Origin: an uncultured bacterium
Lineage (GTDB): Bacteria > Patescibacteriota > Gracilibacteria > Absconditabacterales > Absconditicoccaceae
DNA: 40,703 bases
NCBI GenBank assembly: GCA_903918675.1
Contig: CAIXFE010000033.1
Location: 1-40,703, forward strand
Direction: 5' to 3'
Made by a program: the position numbers and the translations under genes. A model generated the notes under the pieces. It had not been told where the DNA came from. It made no database searches and saw only the letters and a list, made by a program, of their open reading frames with translations. The first letter of the stretch is position 1; each line of letters starts with the position of its first letter. This document shows positions 32,014-40,539 of this stretch, piece after piece.

Positions 32014-33228
32014 TTACTCATATCTCAATGCTTCGATAGGTTTGAGTTTTGCCGCTCTGTATGCGGGGAAAATACCGAATGACAAACCGATCAGGATGGA
32101 AAATCCGACAGCCATAAGGATAGACTGTAAGGTAATAATTCCTGCAATGACACTTTTCAATCCAAAGACGATCAGATAACTAAATGCGATACCGATGATT
32201 CCACCGATGAAACATAAGACTAAAGATTCACAAAGGAATTGCAGAATGATATCTTTGTTTTGTGCGCCGACTGCTTTGCGGATTCAGATTTCACGTGTTC
32301 TCTCTGCGACGGAGACGAGCATAATATTCATCACGCCGATTCCTCAGACGATCAATGCGATCCCTGCGATGGCGCCTAAGAAAAGCTTCAATGTCCCCGT
32401 AATAGAACTGACCGTCGAAACTAAGTCAGCTTGATTTTGGATGGTGAAATTCGCTTCGGTAGGATCAATGATATTGAAATGTTTGAGTAGCATATTTGTG
32501 ATCAGTGTCTCTGTCGGAGTGACTTCTTGAGAAGTACTGACAGATAAGGAAATATCGGAAAGATAGGTAGTACCAAAAAGTCTCTCTTGTGCGGTACTCA
32601 ATGGGACGAATACGACATCATTTGCATTGCCAAATCCCTGTGATCATTTGACAGTCATTACGCCGATAACGGTCAAGATAGTATTTCCGAAACGAATATC
32701 TTTCCCTATAGGATTCGCATTACCGAACAACACCGTAGCCGTATCTGATCAGATCACTGCGACCTTATCTACATTGTCTTCGTTTTTTTGTGTAATGAAA
32801 GATCCGTATGCTACCGTGGAATTGCGGACTTGAAGATAAGCGGGAGTGACTCCGTAAATAGTTTCCTGCGCATTATTATCTAAATAAATTACTTGGCCTC
32901 TGGATGAATATTCAGGTGACACCATCGATACATTGGGCAATCCTTTGATAAGATCAGATTCTGCAGTCGTGAGTACATTTTCAGATCATCTTCCTCCTGC
33001 CGCTCCTCTTACATTCGATTGCTGAGAACCCCCAGGGCTGATGACTAGAAGATTAGTTCACAGCGATTCAATGTTGGAAAGAATGGAAGCAGTGGCTCCT
33101 TGTCATAATGCCAACAAAACCACGACCGACAAAATACCGATAATGATACCCAGACTACTTAGTCCAGACCTCAGTTTATTGGCTATCAACGAATTGAATG
33201 CATTTTTCAAATATACTCGCACGGACAT
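32014..33228 (-). CDS. MacB/FtsX-type ABC transporter permease
   Basis: 404 residues, ATG 33228 to TAA. The first helix follows AFNSLIANKLRSGLSSLGII, the MacB-family start (LRsxLTxLGIxIG). A periplasmic domain of about 200 residues follows. Then come LFLGAIAGIALIVGGIGVMN, VAERTREIGIRKAVGA (the coupling motif), and two more helices ending SFGIFPAYRAAKLKPIEALR. The family exports peptides, antibiotics or lipoproteins with an ATPase and a periplasmic adaptor, both encoded directly upstream. It lacks a fused ATPase domain. Last gene of the exporter operon. Confidence 0.93.
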
Positions 33229-33264: not shown

Positions 33265-34020
33265 TTATTGTTTTGATTTTTTTTCTTCCTTGATATTTGC
33301 CGCTTGGCGTTTGGTCTCTCATGCTTCTTTGATCCCTTTGTCGGTATTGATGTGTATCCTTTCTACTAGGCCATCTCTCATGTGGACATTATGTCTCGCA
33401 AATTGAGCAATGTCCGGCTCATGAGTGACCATAACGATGGTTATCCCCTCTTTATTGAGTTGGGTAAAAATATTCATGATCTCGATACTTGTCTTGGTGT
33501 CTAAATTTCCTGTCGGTTCATCGGCCAAGATCAAGGTTGGATTGGTCACTATCGCACGTGCGATGGCAATCCTCTGCTGCTCTCATCAGGATAATTGATT
33601 TGGTTTGCTATTCACTTTGTGTGCGAGTCATACCTTTTCAAGCGCTGCGATTGCTCTCGCAGTTTCATCTCATTTGGGCACTCACTGATAAAACATAGGA
33701 AGCATTACCTGGTCGATGATTTTCATCCTGGGGATCAAGTTGAACGCCTGGAAAACAAATCAGATTTTTCTGGAACGTAACTGAGCTTTCTCATTCTCCG
33801 TCATCTCAGGAAGTTTCACTCCATCTAGAATATATTCTCCGCTCGTGGGAGTATCTAGAAGTCAGAGAATATTCATAAGCGTGGATTTGCCAGATCACGA
33901 AGGTCCCATGATCGCGAAGAAATCGCCGTCATGGATCGTCAAATCAATGCCAAACAATACTTTGGTCATCACTTCATTTCAGATCATATAATCTTTCTTG
34001 ATATTTTTGAGCTCTATCAT
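33265..34020 (-). CDS. MacB/LolD-type ABC transporter ATP-binding protein
   Basis: 251 residues, ATG 34020 to TAA. Walker A is GPSGSGKST (residues 39-47), Q-loop [12 protein letters not shown], signature [15 protein letters not shown], Walker [14 protein letters not shown]-switch MVTHEP. This is the LolD/MacB subgroup pattern (EPTGNLD). Glycines of Walker A and of the signature are TGA codons, so activity depends on UGA decoding. The C-terminal 20 residues after the standard domain are Lys-rich. It lies between the permease and the adaptor genes and powers the transporter. Confidence 0.95.
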
Positions 34021-34047: not shown

Positions 34048-35934
34048 CTAATTCCCGGGTCTAGTAAATCCTCCGGCTCCTCCCGCTCATCCACCAGCTC
34101 CTCCATTCAATAGTCTGAATGAATTAGCCTGACTGCTTTGTCCTGATGAACGTCAAGTACCAGAAGAAGCTCCCTGTCAGAATGAACTTGTGGTTGTGCT
34201 ACTTGTCTGTACTTGATATTGTTGTGCATAAATAATTTCACCTGCTTGTAATCCGCTTAAGACTTCCGTATTTGTATCATCGGTAATCCCGACAGAAATA
34301 GGTGTTGTCCCTGATTGAGTCCATACAAAAGCTTGATTGCCCTTTGTCTGTACGGCGACTGTCGGTATGATCAAGATGTCTTCTTTATGATTGATGATAA
34401 CTTTTACATTTGCCGACATACTGTCATAGATTTTCTTGCCTTCCGTCTGCTGGAGATTGATGGTGGCTTGATAAGAAACCACGCCAGCACTCGTGACTGG
34501 TGTAGGATCTATACTACCGATGGTTCAGGTAATTACATATCCAGGATATGCGTCGAATGTAACTTCCACGGCTTGTCCTGGCTCTACTTTGACGATATCT
34601 ATCTGATCGATCAATGTATTTACTTGATATGCATCAGGATTGGAAACGGTGATACCATCAGCCGATGTCCCAGCGTTGGAAGAAACAGTATCCCCTATCT
34701 TGAATCCAACGGTATCCACCGTACCATCAAAGGGGGCAATGATTTGATAATTATTTAATTGCTGAGAGGTTTGCTCATAACTTAGTTGAGATTGTTTGAC
34801 AGAATTTAGCTGGAGTGTTGCATCATTTGAATTTGGTCAGTTTTCCATATTTTGGAGTGTTTGTTGGTCGATTTGTAATTGTGCTTGATCATTATTCACT
34901 TCACTCTGTTTTGCTTGGATATCAGTCGAAGTATTATTGAAATTCTGAGTATCGGTATTCACCGTGGAAAGATGAGAAAGTACTTTAGAACTTGCACCAT
35001 TTAGCGTGCTAAGCCACGAATTTATCTGGCTTTGTGACAGAGCTCCGTCACCCATCATAGCATTATTCACTGCATTGATACTGTTATCTATCATAGTGGA
35101 TAATGCGTTGAGCAATGTTTTCTCTTGATCCTGAAGCATTTGTATGGCCGTTCTCGTGGTAGTGATAGAAGAAGATACGCTGGAAAGTTGAGAATTTAAT
35201 GCATCAAGAGCGGTGGTCGCAGTATTGAAATACATCTGTGCATTATTGTAATATACTGATGTCGTAGCTTCGATTAATTTAATATTATAACTATTGGAAT
35301 ATGTATCATTCCTAAGAGTAAAACTGAATATCTGATCGACATTTTGCAACATACTCTGAGTGTCGTTCGCCAAACTCTTAGCATTTATGGTATTTGTCTG
35401 GACATAAGAGCTTGTATTCTGCAAGGTATTTCAGACATCCCCCTGTAAATCTTGTAAATCTTTTTTTGCTATATCCAATTTAGATTGATCTCCATTCACA
35501 TCATTCTGCGCCTTCAATTTGTCTGCATCTGTATATTGAGTCAGAAGTTTATTATAATTTATTTTCGCATTCTGGATACTCAATGCCTGCTGTGAAAGGC
35601 TGATAGAAAGTTGCTTCTTGTCCAATTCAGCTAGAAGCTGTCCGGCTTTTACTTTATCTCATTCTTTCACATAGACCTTTGCCACTTTACCTTCCGTGCC
35701 AAAAACGAGCGTCTGCATATTTGTAATCTTCGTGGTTCAGATCAGTTTAAGGGTGTTCTCTATAGATCCACTTGTGACCGTATACGTCACGGTACTAGCC
35801 GTCGTGGTTGTGGTAGTAGACGATGCACATCATCTGATTACCAAAAATAGAAGTACGAGAACGACAATGACGTACCATTTGTGACTTTTGAGGGCGTCCC
35901 AAACCTTATTCAAAAAATTTGATTCTGTATTCAT
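34048..35934 (-). CDS. MacA/HlyD-type membrane fusion (adaptor) protein
   Basis: 628 residues, ATG 35934 to TAG. One N-terminal helix (WYVIVVLVLLFLVIRGC). Then a biotinyl-lipoyl-like half (VFGTEGKVAKVYVKEGDKVK, AGQLLAELDK), a very long coiled-coil region rich in Gln, Asn, Ser and Thr (about 110-340), the second lipoyl half (YQIIAPFDGTVDTVGFKIGD) and beta-barrel segments (IGSIDPTPVTSAGVVSYQAT, ILIIPTVAVQTKG). The tail is Gly-rich (GGAGGGAGGAGG). The adaptor couples the ABC permease to outer structures. The hairpin is longer than in usual MacA (about 370-400 residues in total). In an organism without an obvious outer membrane partner here, it may span another layer. Confidence 0.9.
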
Positions 35935-35983: not shown

Positions 35984-36235
35984 TTAGTTCCCTAAGTTCC
36001 TACTATATCCCCCGCGAGATCCTCATCATCATAAGCCACCAGGGAGCCTGATCACTGATGCTGTTCCGTTACGAGATCCATTGGATATATTTTGTCTGCC
36101 TCATCCTATATTAGGATGTCATCCACCCCCATGGATATTTTGGAATATTATGATGACCACAAGTAATCCTATGATCACAACAAGACAATTCCTGACCGTA
36201 AAAAAATCTTTTACTTGTTGAGAAAATTTTTCCAT
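35984..36235 (-). CDS. Small Gly-rich single-span membrane protein
   Basis: 83 residues, ATG 36235 to TAA. One helix (CLVVIIGLLVVIIIF) precedes an extracytoplasmic tail of Gly, Asn, Arg and Ser (HGGGGHPNIGGGRQN ... LPGGLGGGGSRGGY). Three consecutive TGA codons followed by GGA encode four glycines. The tail resembles in composition the Gly-rich end of the adaptor protein downstream. First gene of the exporter operon, so possibly an accessory subunit. No family recognised. Confidence 0.7.
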
Positions 36236-36298
36236 GATAGCTGATGCGACAAAATATAAAAAAATACGTATAATAACGAGGGTACTATATCTATTCAC

Positions 36299-36314
36299 CT
36301 TAAATTAATCTTAA
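36299..36314. promoter_or_regulatory. OmpR-type direct repeat, site 1
   Basis: CTTAA-N6-CTTAA, two pentamers at 36299 and 36310, spaced exactly 11 bp. It is upstream of the minus-strand exporter operon (first start codon 36235). An OmpR/PhoB-family regulator is encoded at 38456-39109. Confidence 0.6.
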
Positions 36315-36427
36315 AAGATCTCGAAGATGTTCTAATATGCAAATCGCTGACATTTTTCATGTCCAATACTTTAGATTTTAAATTCCCTTGCTCCCGATAC
36401 CTCGCCTCTGCCTAGGGATTTTTTTCA

Positions 36428-36443
36428 CTTAAGCTTATCTTAA
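36428..36443 (+). promoter_or_regulatory. OmpR-type direct repeat, site 2
   Basis: CTTAA-N6-CTTAA, pentamers at 36428 and 36439 with the same 11-bp spacing as site 1. The second pentamer overlaps the expected -35 region of the promoter with -10 TATACT at 36454-36459, the usual place for an activator of this family. Confidence 0.65.
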
Positions 36444-36453
36444 GGTAACTGAG

Positions 36454-36498
36454 TATACTGCTCGGCGTTCACGCAAGATTTTATTTTCTTACACCAGA
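36454..36498 (+). promoter_or_regulatory. -10 box and leader shared with the 39809 gene
   Basis: TATACT, then CGTTCACGCAAGATTTTATT. The minus-strand promoter at 39857 has TATACT, then CGTTCACGCAGATTTTTTAT. There is no good -35 hexamer, which fits activator dependence. Confidence 0.55.
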
Positions 36499-37146
36499 AT
36501 GACGATGAAAAAAAACGTAATTATTATCGCAGGCATTGCTTGATTGACCATTTTAGCTACTTCCATCACTTTTGCTAGTGCTAATACTGGCAACGCAATG
36601 CAATGGACCACAGGGCAAAAAACCAATGGTTTTATGCACAATAGATGAGGCCATGGGAACAAATGAATGATGTTTGGCTTTGGTCCAGGCATGGACTCAT
36701 GAGCTAAAATGTGAATAGGTTCAGGAATGGGATTGATTTTAAATCAAGAGAAACAAGGCATCCAGACAGCCATCAAAAACAATGATTACTCAGCATATTT
36801 AACTGCCTATGAAAATGCAAAACTCACTCAAGATCAATTTACAAAGATAGTGAAGACCTCCCAAAGTAAAACAGCGATAGAGACTGCGATCAAAAATAAC
36901 GACTATACCGCTTATGTCGCCGCCGTCAAAGGGACCTCATTGGAAGGCAAGGTAACACAAGCTCAATTTACGGACATGGTAGCAAAAAATATACAGAGAA
37001 CGGCACTGCGTGATGCAATTCTCAATAATGATTACACTGCCTACACGAATGCTGTCAAAGGCACTCCTATGGAAGGCAAGGTAACTCAGGCTCAATTTGC
37101 TACCATGGTACAACATAGCCAACAAAGTAATAAAAAAGGGGGATAA
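36499..37146 (+). CDS. Secreted or membrane-anchored protein with three tandem repeats
   Basis: 215 residues, ATG 36499 (ATG 36505 equally possible) to TAA. A signal sequence (KKNVIIIAGIAGLTILATSI) ends near TFASA. A Gly/Met/His-rich segment (MHNRGGHGNKGMMFGFGPGM) is followed by three repeats of about 40 residues. Each has a (A/T)AI.NNDY(S/T)AY element, and KVTQAQF ends repeats 2 and 3 (TQDQF in repeat 1). The His/Met-rich part could bind metal such as copper, which is speculation. The gene is preceded by an OmpR-type site and followed by a terminator and the two-component genes, so it is a likely target of that system. Not a family I recognise. Confidence 0.78.
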
Positions 37147-37223: not shown

Positions 37224-38456
37224 ATGCTTCACCTCACCACATCCAAACGCATTAGTTTAAAATTTACGCTCTATACTATAGGGATTGTATTCTTTTTCTG
37301 ATTCCTCGTAAATATTTTGTTTTTCCAACAACGGTATGGTGCGGAAAATTGAAGATTGAAAAATGAAAAAATCCCACTCCCTAATCTTAGCTGAGCACAT
37401 GAACGTTTCCAAATGCCAGGCATAGAAGAGCTCCCCTACCAGGATTCTGCTTACACTGAGCTCAAACATAATAGTATCTTTTCAAATATCTCTGAGGTAG
37501 ATAATCAATATCTCATTTACTCTCATATTGGAGACACCATTAGAGTATCCAATGTTACACGTATGGTCCAGGCTCAGCAGAAAATGGCGCTGATCTTCCT
37601 GATCCTTTTGATTATTTTCTCTCTGTGAACATATGGTGTTTCACTTATTTTTGTCAGATCCTCACTCAGAAACATCAATCAATTGGTCGATTACGTCAAG
37701 AATATAAATATCCACACCCTGCATGAACCCGTCCCTTTATCCGGACCTCCCGATGACGAGATCCGCATCATTGGCGAGACTCTCCAGCAAACGCTGACGA
37801 TCGTCAAAGAACAGACAGACAGTCTGAGAGATTTCGTCACACACGCTTCTCATGAGCTCAAGACGCCCTTGATGTCACTCAGTGCCGTCATGGATGCTGG
37901 ACAAAAGACGGGGAATTATGAGAAGGCATTCGTCTCAGCCAAACAGACTTTACGCACGATCAATACGCTTTTTGAAACGTTGTTGTCTATTACCAAACGA
38001 GAATATCACAACATCCAGAAAGAAAATATCGATATCATTCCTATCATGAGTTCTATCAAGGATGAACTTGCTAAGACATATAAAGATAAAAATATTATCT
38101 GTTCCGTGGATCTTCCACCGACGTATATCCAGCATTCCAATAAGGATATCTTCCATATCATTTTCTTCAATCTTTTGCAGAACGCATATAAATATACTCC
38201 AGAAAAAGGATTGATCAATATTCAGCTCAAGAAAGATGTCTTGTCTGTCATCAATTCCTGACCGGGCATCGACGAAAAAAATAGCAAAAACATCCGAGAA
38301 AAATTCTGGAAAAATCATGCACAGGAACAGAGCAGAGACTGATTTGGACTGGGGTTGTACCTTGTCAAACTTCTCGTGACCAAACACCAACGAAAGATTT
38401 CCATGTCCAGTATTCCGGACAAGAAAACTACTTTTAGTATTTCATTTGGCAAATAA
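37224..38456 (+). CDS. Sensor histidine kinase
   Basis: 410 residues, ATG 37224 to TAA. Two helices (about 13-32 and 121-146) enclose an extracytoplasmic sensor region of about 85 residues. A linker is followed by the dimerisation/phosphoacceptor motif ASHELKTPL (His210), N-box NLLQNAYKYTP, G1 NSGPGID and G2 DGFGLGLYLVK. It autophosphorylates and passes phosphate to the regulator that overlaps its stop. The start of the sensor region is encoded by an ATTGAAGATTGAAAAATG microrepeat (near 37345) of the kind seen in spacers. The input signal is unknown. Confidence 0.93.
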
Positions 38457-39109
38457 TGATGCATATCCTTATCGTCGAAGACACTCATGATATCTGACAA
38501 GCAATGAAAGAATATCTCACTGCTAGTGGTTATAATGTTACCCGGGTGACTACATTGGCCGATTGTTATAAAGTGATCAGAAAGGAGCATTTCGACTGCG
38601 TCATCATGGATCGAATGCTTCCTGATGGTGATGGCGCGCAAGCGTGCAATGAGATCAAATCATATAAAAATATTCCCGTCATCATGGCGACAGCCAAGGG
38701 ACAACTTGAAGACAAAGTGCAATGATTTGAATATGGCGCAGATGATTATCTCACGAAGCCATTTGATTTGAAAGAGCTTGAGCTTCGCATCGTTGCAGTC
38801 ACCAAAAGAAATGATCCTAGCGAGATCATGTATTGGAAAGAGCTGAAGATAGATCTAGAGAAGAAAGAAATATACAGGAAGGATAAGCTCGTTCACCTCA
38901 CGAATAAAGAATTTCTTATCGTCGCCTTATTGCTTACCAATCATGGAAATACGATCTCAAGGACTACGTTGCTGGAAGAAGTCTGGGGCTCAGATGCCGC
39001 TTGGGAAAACGATAGTAAATTGGATGTCTATATTTCTACGATCAGAAGAAAGTTAGGGAAGGATTTTATCCAGACAGAGAAGGGCGTGGGATATAGGATA
39101 AGTATATAA
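38456..39109 (+). CDS. OmpR/PhoB-family response regulator
   Basis: 217 residues; ATG 38456 overlaps the kinase stop by one base (TAATG), so the two genes are translationally coupled. Receiver domain: acidic pair ED near residue 8, phosphoacceptor Asp52 in VIMDRMLPDGDG, and Lys101 in YLTKPFD. The C-terminal winged helix is LTNKEFLIVALLL, then LLEEVWG and VYISTIRRKLG, ending with the wing GVGYRI. Regulators of this type bind direct repeats with an 11-bp period, exactly what is seen at 36299 and 36428. Confidence 0.95.
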
Positions 39110-39347: not shown

Positions 39348-39809
39348 TTATTTTGTTAATGAAGTGACCCCCTTGGGTAAGTCGATTTTCAATTGAGCAA
39401 GTTCTGCCATCAATTGGTCTATTCTTTGTCCTGCATTTGCAGTATCGCCTCTCTGGATGAAATTGAGCATGCTTGTGTAGTTATCCTGCAATGCTGCGAT
39501 TTGTGTCATCTGAGTTCTGAGAGCTGCTTGATCTCCTGTAGCCACTTTTTCAAGATTCCTTTGTGGTAAATTGTTTCTCATCATACCACCTCTCTGAGTG
39601 ACGATAGCGTTGCCCTGCATTCCAAATCCACCATTCTCAAATCCTCTGACTCCTCTGTTGTGATGCATACCTATAGCCAATCCTATCACGATACCGACAA
39701 TCAAAATAATAACTTTGATGATGATCCATTTTCGACACATTCTTCTTTTGCCCATGCAACAACCGTTTTCTTGATTGTCCATGCAACATTTTTTTTCTTG
39801 TCCTTCCAT
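39348..39809 (-). CDS. Small membrane-anchored protein with Cys-rich N-terminus
   Basis: 153 residues, ATG 39809 to TAA, without in-frame TGA. The cytoplasmic N-terminus is Cys-rich (KKCCMDNQENGCCMGKRRMC). One helix (IIIKVIILIVGIVIGLAIGM) leads to HHNRGVRGFENGGFGM and a helical extracytoplasmic domain (QMTQIAALQDNY ... RIDQLMAELAQLK). The HNRG...GFGM segment recalls the HNRGGHG...GFGPGM segment of the 36499 gene, and the two genes share a promoter/leader. Likely part of the same regulon. The helical domain could be a periplasmic chaperone-like or metal-sensing module, which is a guess. Confidence 0.72.
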   Translation of the reverse strand: MEGQEKKCCMDNQENGCCMGKRRMCRKWIIIKVIILIVGIVIGLAIGMHHNRGVRGFENGGFGMQGNAIVTQRGGMMRNNLPQRNLEKVATGDQAALRTQMTQIAALQDNYTSMLNFIQRGDTANAGQRIDQLMAELAQLKIDLPKGVTSLTK

Positions 39810-39954: not shown

Positions 39955-39987
39955 TGGCAGTATAAAAAAACCAAAAAAACTAAACCC

Positions 39988-40539
39988 ATGAAAAAAAACA
40001 TTTTAATTGCCCTAGTACTTTCCCTTGTGCTTGGGACAAAGGTTGCGGCACAAGATTCCACCCTGATAAGGGCGGTTCACTCAACCGAGGAGTTGTTGGC
40101 CTTGAGATTTAAAACATCTTTTGATTCCATTTATCGTAGGATCACTAAAAAAGATGTGAAGGATATCCGGGTTAGCGACCTCCTGAATCTGGCTAGGTGG
40201 TCCCAAATAAAGACCAGCTCGCTGCTTATGGCTGGGATTGAGGTCACTTTTGATAAGAACAACCGATTTGGTTCGGTTGCCATCAAGTCAAAATATGAAA
40301 TTGACTTCGTAAAAGTTGGTGATTCCTTAGTTGGAATCGAAATTTGGAAAAGGAATTGGTCCATTCAATATTGGCAGGGAAAATTATCCTTAATAGGATA
40401 TAAAGACTGCCCTCTTCCCTTTCACTTCATCTTTTCGGATGGGGAAACTTCTTTTTTATACCCGTATAAAAAGAATCTTGAAAAAAAATTCATCCGCCGG
40501 CTCAGAAGAGCTATTCGGTGAATTAATGCTATTATATAG
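39988..40539 (+). CDS. Secreted protein of unknown function, probably transferred
   Basis: 183 residues with code 25, ATG 39988 to TAG; 177 residues if TGA at 40519-40521 is read as stop. Signal peptide MKKNILIALVLSLVLGTKVA followed by AQDS. A Gln at the mature start is typical of Bacteroidota secreted proteins. The body is soluble, with an alpha/beta look (IEVTFDKNNRFGSVAIKSKY, GIEIWKRNWSIQYWQGKLSL). There is no TGA inside, only one exactly where the protein seems to end, after the basic RRLRRAIR tail. Codon choice looks different from the neighbours (more GGG, GCC, TTG). I infer recent transfer from a standard-code donor, so the extra residues GINAII in code 25 would be an accidental extension. 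No family recognised. Confidence 0.7.

Follow-up and report, generated by a model that had tools for sequence, protein, structure and literature searches.

Paired direct repeats at divergent promoters as putative operators of a two-component regulator in an uncultured Absconditicoccaceae bacterium

What controls transcription from the region between an exporter operon and the gene for a secreted repeat protein in an uncultured member of the Absconditicoccaceae? The window considered here is the whole stretch of 40,703 nt that was analysed, on contig 33 of a draft genome of 1.39 Mb (G000). In its genes TGA stands for Gly, as is already known for Gracilibacteria and Absconditabacteria. To our knowledge, hardly any work exists on how candidate-phyla bacteria control transcription, and none of the papers searched reported an operator or regulon for this group. 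The initial annotation had proposed that two copies of CTTAA-N6-CTTAA, 129 bp apart, are operators of an OmpR-family regulator encoded nearby together with its kinase. We locate the two copies at 36299-36314 and 36428-36443 (+), and both proteins are encoded close by when the genes are read with TGA as Gly. The features of the locus are the following:

32014-33228, minus strand: MacB-like permease (Pfam MacB_PCD, FtsX)
33265-34020, minus strand: ABC transporter ATPase (Pfam ABC_tran)
34048-35934, minus strand: membrane-fusion protein of the HlyD/MacA type (Pfam HlyD_D23, HlyD_3)
35984-36235, minus strand: small membrane protein of 83 aa whose C-terminus is rich in Gly and His; its gene opens the exporter operon
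36284-36289, minus strand: TATAGT, the -10 box for the exporter operon, lying 9 bp beyond the second half-site
36299-36315, minus strand: putative operator 1, TTTAAG-ATTAA-TTTAAG in the minus-strand reading, directed toward the exporter operon and inside a perfect composite match (36284-36315)
36428-36444, plus strand: putative operator 2, CTTAAG-CTTAT-CTTAAG, directed toward the secreted protein and occupying the -35 place
36454-36459, plus strand: TATACT, the -10 box for the secreted protein, lying 9 bp beyond the second half-site
36499-37146, plus strand: secreted repeat protein with NDYTAY repeats and a Met/Gly/His-rich segment
37224-38456, plus strand: sensor histidine kinase (Pfam HisKA, HATPase_c)
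38456-39109, plus strand: OmpR-family response regulator (Pfam Response_reg, Trans_reg_C) with recognition helix KLDVYISTIRRKL

The two elements share a 6+5+6+9+6 layout. The first reads TTTAAG-ATTAA-TTTAAG-GTGAATAGA-TATAGT on the minus strand (36315 to 36284), and the second CTTAAG-CTTAT-CTTAAG-GTAACTGAG-TATACT on the plus strand (36428 to 36459). Read strand by strand, they diverge and face outwards: the first is directed at the exporter operon, the second at the secreted repeat protein. Since CTTAA and TTAAG are reverse complements, these divergent sites seem identical when only one strand is read; the pair seen earlier in the divergent promoter region is thus real but not tandem, site 1 acting on the minus strand. 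The places 17 bp upstream of the two -10 boxes are taken by AAGATT and AAGCTT, so that neither promoter has a usable -35, in line with the earlier remark that TATACT has no good one (no TTGACA-like hexamer is found 17 bp upstream of it). At both promoters the operator overlaps the -35 place, a position that fits a class II promoter. The ATG of the secreted protein follows 39 nt past TATACT, and the start codon of the 83-aa membrane protein lies 48 nt past TATAGT. The exporter operon expected downstream of site 1 is present, but it begins with this small protein. A homologous small ORF occupies the same position after the box in two relatives, G003 and G006 (L110, L101). The three one-helix proteins measure 79-87 aa, share FFTV(K/R)NSLIVIIC... 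and end in a Gly/His-rich tail, and a Pfam search with this protein gave no match.

In the window itself, CTTAA-N6-CTTAA is rare by chance (0.12 expected from shuffling; none of 100 shuffles had at least 3 matches). Genome-wide, where expectations came from a first-order model with the base composition of the window, the enrichment that had been anticipated did not appear: there are 6 matches, two of which are one overlapping palindromic site, against 4.9 expected and 4 for the reversed-pattern control. Because this count is close to expectation, we dropped CTTAA-N6-CTTAA as the motif; judged in that form alone, the finding would have been refuted. The enriched form is the 32-bp composite YTTAAG-N5-YTTAAG-N9-TATANT, which has four perfect and no one-mismatch matches in the 1.39-Mb genome where 0.0019 are expected, an excess of about 2000-fold. 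Two of the four are the window sites flanking the intergenic region; the third lies 32 nt before the start codon of a 77-aa lipoprotein-like protein (C89) and the fourth 38 nt before that of a 76-aa small protein containing His, Cys and Met (C121). If the spacer ahead of the -10 box is set to 10 bp, the composite pattern is off by one and misses both window sites.

The element recurs among relatives. A scan of 49 family genomes with YTTAAK-N5-YTTAAGGT-N7-TATANT, allowing at most one mismatch, returned 94 sites, spread over 30 genomes; the reversed pattern, run as control, gave 4. With a slightly different form of the pattern, a class-wide scan of 242 genomes gave matches in 36 (control 3), nearly all from the family of the window and from families f14 and f22. 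When 2-15 bp were allowed between box and -10, the spacing seen in the window was retained at 39 of the 44 distinct sites. In G029 (C2, C3, C4, C5) the -10 box is 1 bp further away at all four boxes, a lineage-wide shift in promoter spacing. Half-sites about 11 bp apart (6+5+6) characterise both window sites and the family as a whole. G occupies position 6 of the first half-site in 81% of sites and of the second in 100%, the latter being demanded by the search pattern. Positions outside the pattern are also conserved (T8 and T9, 94%; T23, 84%), which yields the family consensus TTTAAGnTTnnTTTAAGGTnnATnAnTATAmT. In genomes without the element, counts of a loose TTAA-N7-TTAA are close to control, save in G016, G029 and G012.

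The sites lie at promoters. Outside one genome with an unusual number of boxes (G065, below), an ATG-initiated ORF of at least 70 aa begins no more than 100 nt past the -10 box at 68 of 77 sites, compared with 12.5% of random positions, and 12 of 78 sites fall within ORFs against a coding background of 86%. Clustering of the proteins downstream of the boxes across the family defines the target classes: secreted repeat proteins like that of the window (21 sites), the kinase of the same two-component system (16 sites), HlyD-type membrane-fusion proteins of the exporter (6), another secreted family (6), VTC-domain proteins (5) and Cthe_2159-like proteins (3), with single cases of a ferric-reductase-like protein, a ferredoxin, cytochrome b5, DUF2202 and DUF347. 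The sites at the kinase answer the earlier suggestion to look for the motif beside orthologs. The VTC-domain genes (polyphosphate-polymerase-like) are recurrent targets in relatives (L097 3218, L122, L126, L139, L156); none was seen near a box in the window.

The window regulator combines Response_reg with a winged-helix Trans_reg_C domain (99.6 and 71.7 bits, both above cut-off) and is the sole Trans_reg_C protein found in its genome. A homologue is encoded in 41 of the 49 family genomes. The element occurs in 30 of these 41 and in none of the other 8 (Fisher p=1.7e-4, from genomes that are related and hence non-independent, several of the 8 being 59-76% complete); in ten genomes carrying a homologue no clear element was seen. 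The window shares the gene order box, secreted protein, kinase, regulator with G005 and G026, the two relatives whose regulators are nearest to its own in sequence (69% identity); in both, the operator 2 box is preserved despite differing flanking DNA. Several other genus members instead have box, kinase, regulator, box and secreted protein, in that order. In G016 the recognition helix is altered to SLDVAITNIRKKL (DVYIS to DVAIT), and the two-component genes are flanked on both sides by YTTAAC boxes at the same spacing. With two sites to go by, box and helix changed together, as direct contact would predict.

Boxes of this type are known from other bacteria. In Streptococcus, CiaR of the CiaRH system binds NTTAAG-N5-TTTAAG with the -10 box at a distance of 10, using helix VVEVYVSKVRKKL (PMC3091779). 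Its homologue BAS0540 of Bacillus anthracis binds such boxes, including one preceding an efflux membrane-fusion gene (PMC4938410), and its targets include its own gene (PMC3091779, PMC4938410). As in the window, the CiaR repeat stands directly before a -10 box without a -35, and both window sites fit the CiaR-type pattern with G at position 6 of each half-site. The recognition helices are similar: KLDVYISTIRRKL and VVEVYVSKVRKKL are identical at 6 of 13 positions and conservatively exchanged at several others, the helix letters alone being compared. The systems differ in that the -10 box lies at 10 bp in CiaR and in the relative G029 but at 9 bp in the window and most relatives, and in that the lineage of the window has an extended ..TTAAGGT, other targets and a host with TGA as Gly, while CiaR-dependent small RNAs are hinted at in one relative only. 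PmrA/BasR of Salmonella and Klebsiella binds CTTAAG-N5-xTTAAT, likewise with head-to-tail half-sites 11 bp apart for an OmpR-family dimer (PMC3973317); cores and spacing agree with the window, whereas the second half-site ends in G in the window and in T in the PmrA box. Matches of the window regulator include the BasR chains 4s04 and 8jo2, at E about 2e-29, with KdpE chains scoring slightly better. The target genes of PmrA/BasR differ from those of the window system, and no lipid A modification genes were seen among the targets examined.

Regulators encoded near CzcCBA-type efflux genes in Bacteroidota (L178, L182, L184) are 37-40% identical to that of the window, L184 at 35%. The Bacteroidota homologues (Bernardetiaceae, Arachidicoccus) have YTTAAG-N5-TTTAAG just downstream of the kinase, and at the inspected loci L178 and L184 the repeat precedes an efflux operon of outer-membrane, fusion-protein and RND-pump genes. 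These loci differ from the window in having RND-type tripartite efflux instead of a MacAB-like exporter, and in the absence of TATANT at the fixed spacing. The repeat near efflux operons suggests an old association of regulator type, box and export. Near the Erysipelotrichia homologues (L175, L177, L179-L181) no such box was found. Given the CiaR and PmrA literature, the box type is known; what is new is its host lineage, its targets and its 9-bp version.

We consider it very probable, on the strength of these sequence comparisons, that both window sites are operators of the CiaR/PmrA box type from which the regulator encoded at 38456-39109 acts as a class II activator. The earlier assignment to the adjacent OmpR-family regulator stands as a prediction, by virtue of conservation, promoter placement, linkage to the regulator and likeness to CiaR and PmrA boxes; its consensus becomes YTTAAG-N5-YTTAAGGT plus a -10 box at 9 bp. 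The kinase (37224) would sense an envelope signal and phosphorylate the regulator, which would dimerise and occupy two YTTAAG half-sites, spaced by 11 bp, in head-to-tail arrangement. The bound regulator, 9 bp from the -10 box, would stand in for the missing -35 and recruit RNA polymerase as a class II activator, with one dimer per site driving two divergent transcripts. One transcript would encode the small membrane protein, membrane-fusion protein, ATPase and MacB-like permease; the other would encode the secreted repeat protein, with possible read-through into kinase and regulator and hence positive feedback. As to the signal, what the targets contain allows guesses at metal, redox or cationic stress; the Met/His/Gly-rich outputs and the redox- and metal-type targets lead us to guess at envelope metal or redox stress. 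Some observations count against this activator model: the ten genomes with a homologue show no clear element, a terminator-like hairpin separates the secreted-protein gene from the kinase gene in the window, the kinase there has no box of its own, and only 8 of the 16 boxes in G065 (L140-L154) are near a start codon.

The same regulator could bind as a repressor by blocking the -35 region. The sites overlap that position, and OmpR-family regulators can repress from it. We regard this as improbable: the invariant 9 bp to the -10 box and the near identity to CiaR-activated promoters favour activation, and with no usable -35 at either promoter there is little to repress. Less probable again is a role of the repeat in promoter recognition by an alternative sigma factor, rather than as an operator, which would account for the very constant distance to the -10 box. 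Against it stand the head-to-tail period of 11 bp, the match to CiaR and PmrA boxes, the tie to regulator presence, the joint change of box and helix in G016, and the Bacteroidota repeat YTTAAG-N5-TTTAAG, which is placed between the genes for kinase and efflux but lacks this -10 box. Binding by another, non-OmpR regulator of the same genome has a slight chance, given that the genome count covered Trans_reg_C proteins only; boxes stand at the two-component system's own genes in many genomes and are missing where the regulator is missing. Chance repeats in AT-rich DNA would explain the expected genome frequency of CTTAA-N6-CTTAA alone, and are refuted for the composite by its roughly 2000-fold excess, the 94 family sites against 4 controls and the class-wide scan.

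Beyond the window, the activator model may extend, tentatively and with the odds somewhat against it, to a lineage-wide envelope regulon under a single regulator in Gracilibacteria with TGA as Gly. In such a regulon a rigid composite promoter would put lineage-specific secreted repeat proteins, exporters, and VTC-domain and redox membrane proteins under one CiaR/PmrA-type system. The box would co-evolve with the regulator (YTTAAC in G016), and in one species (G065) the regulon would have expanded to include short CiaR-style RNAs. A terminator-like hairpin lies 50-105 nt after the box at 5 of the 16 G065 sites, compared with 11 of 150 random stretches (p about 0.01), which hints that these boxes with downstream hairpins precede CiaR-style small RNAs. 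Since the flanks of the G065 sites differ, we rejected the idea that a mobile repeat had spread them.

With one consensus, a single candidate regulator, likely targets over 30 genomes and a natural box variant on offer, regulation in an unculturable lineage becomes testable with purified parts. The secreted and exporter targets may work at the surface of the organism, which we presume to be an episymbiont.

Two further genes lie downstream of the regulator. One, on the minus strand (39348-39809), encodes a Cys/Met-rich small membrane protein for which no Pfam match and no box were found; G005 carries a similar gene at the corresponding position (L093 10216-10686, minus strand). A secreted-looking protein (39982-40518, plus strand) has, unlike its neighbours, no in-frame TGA until its end.
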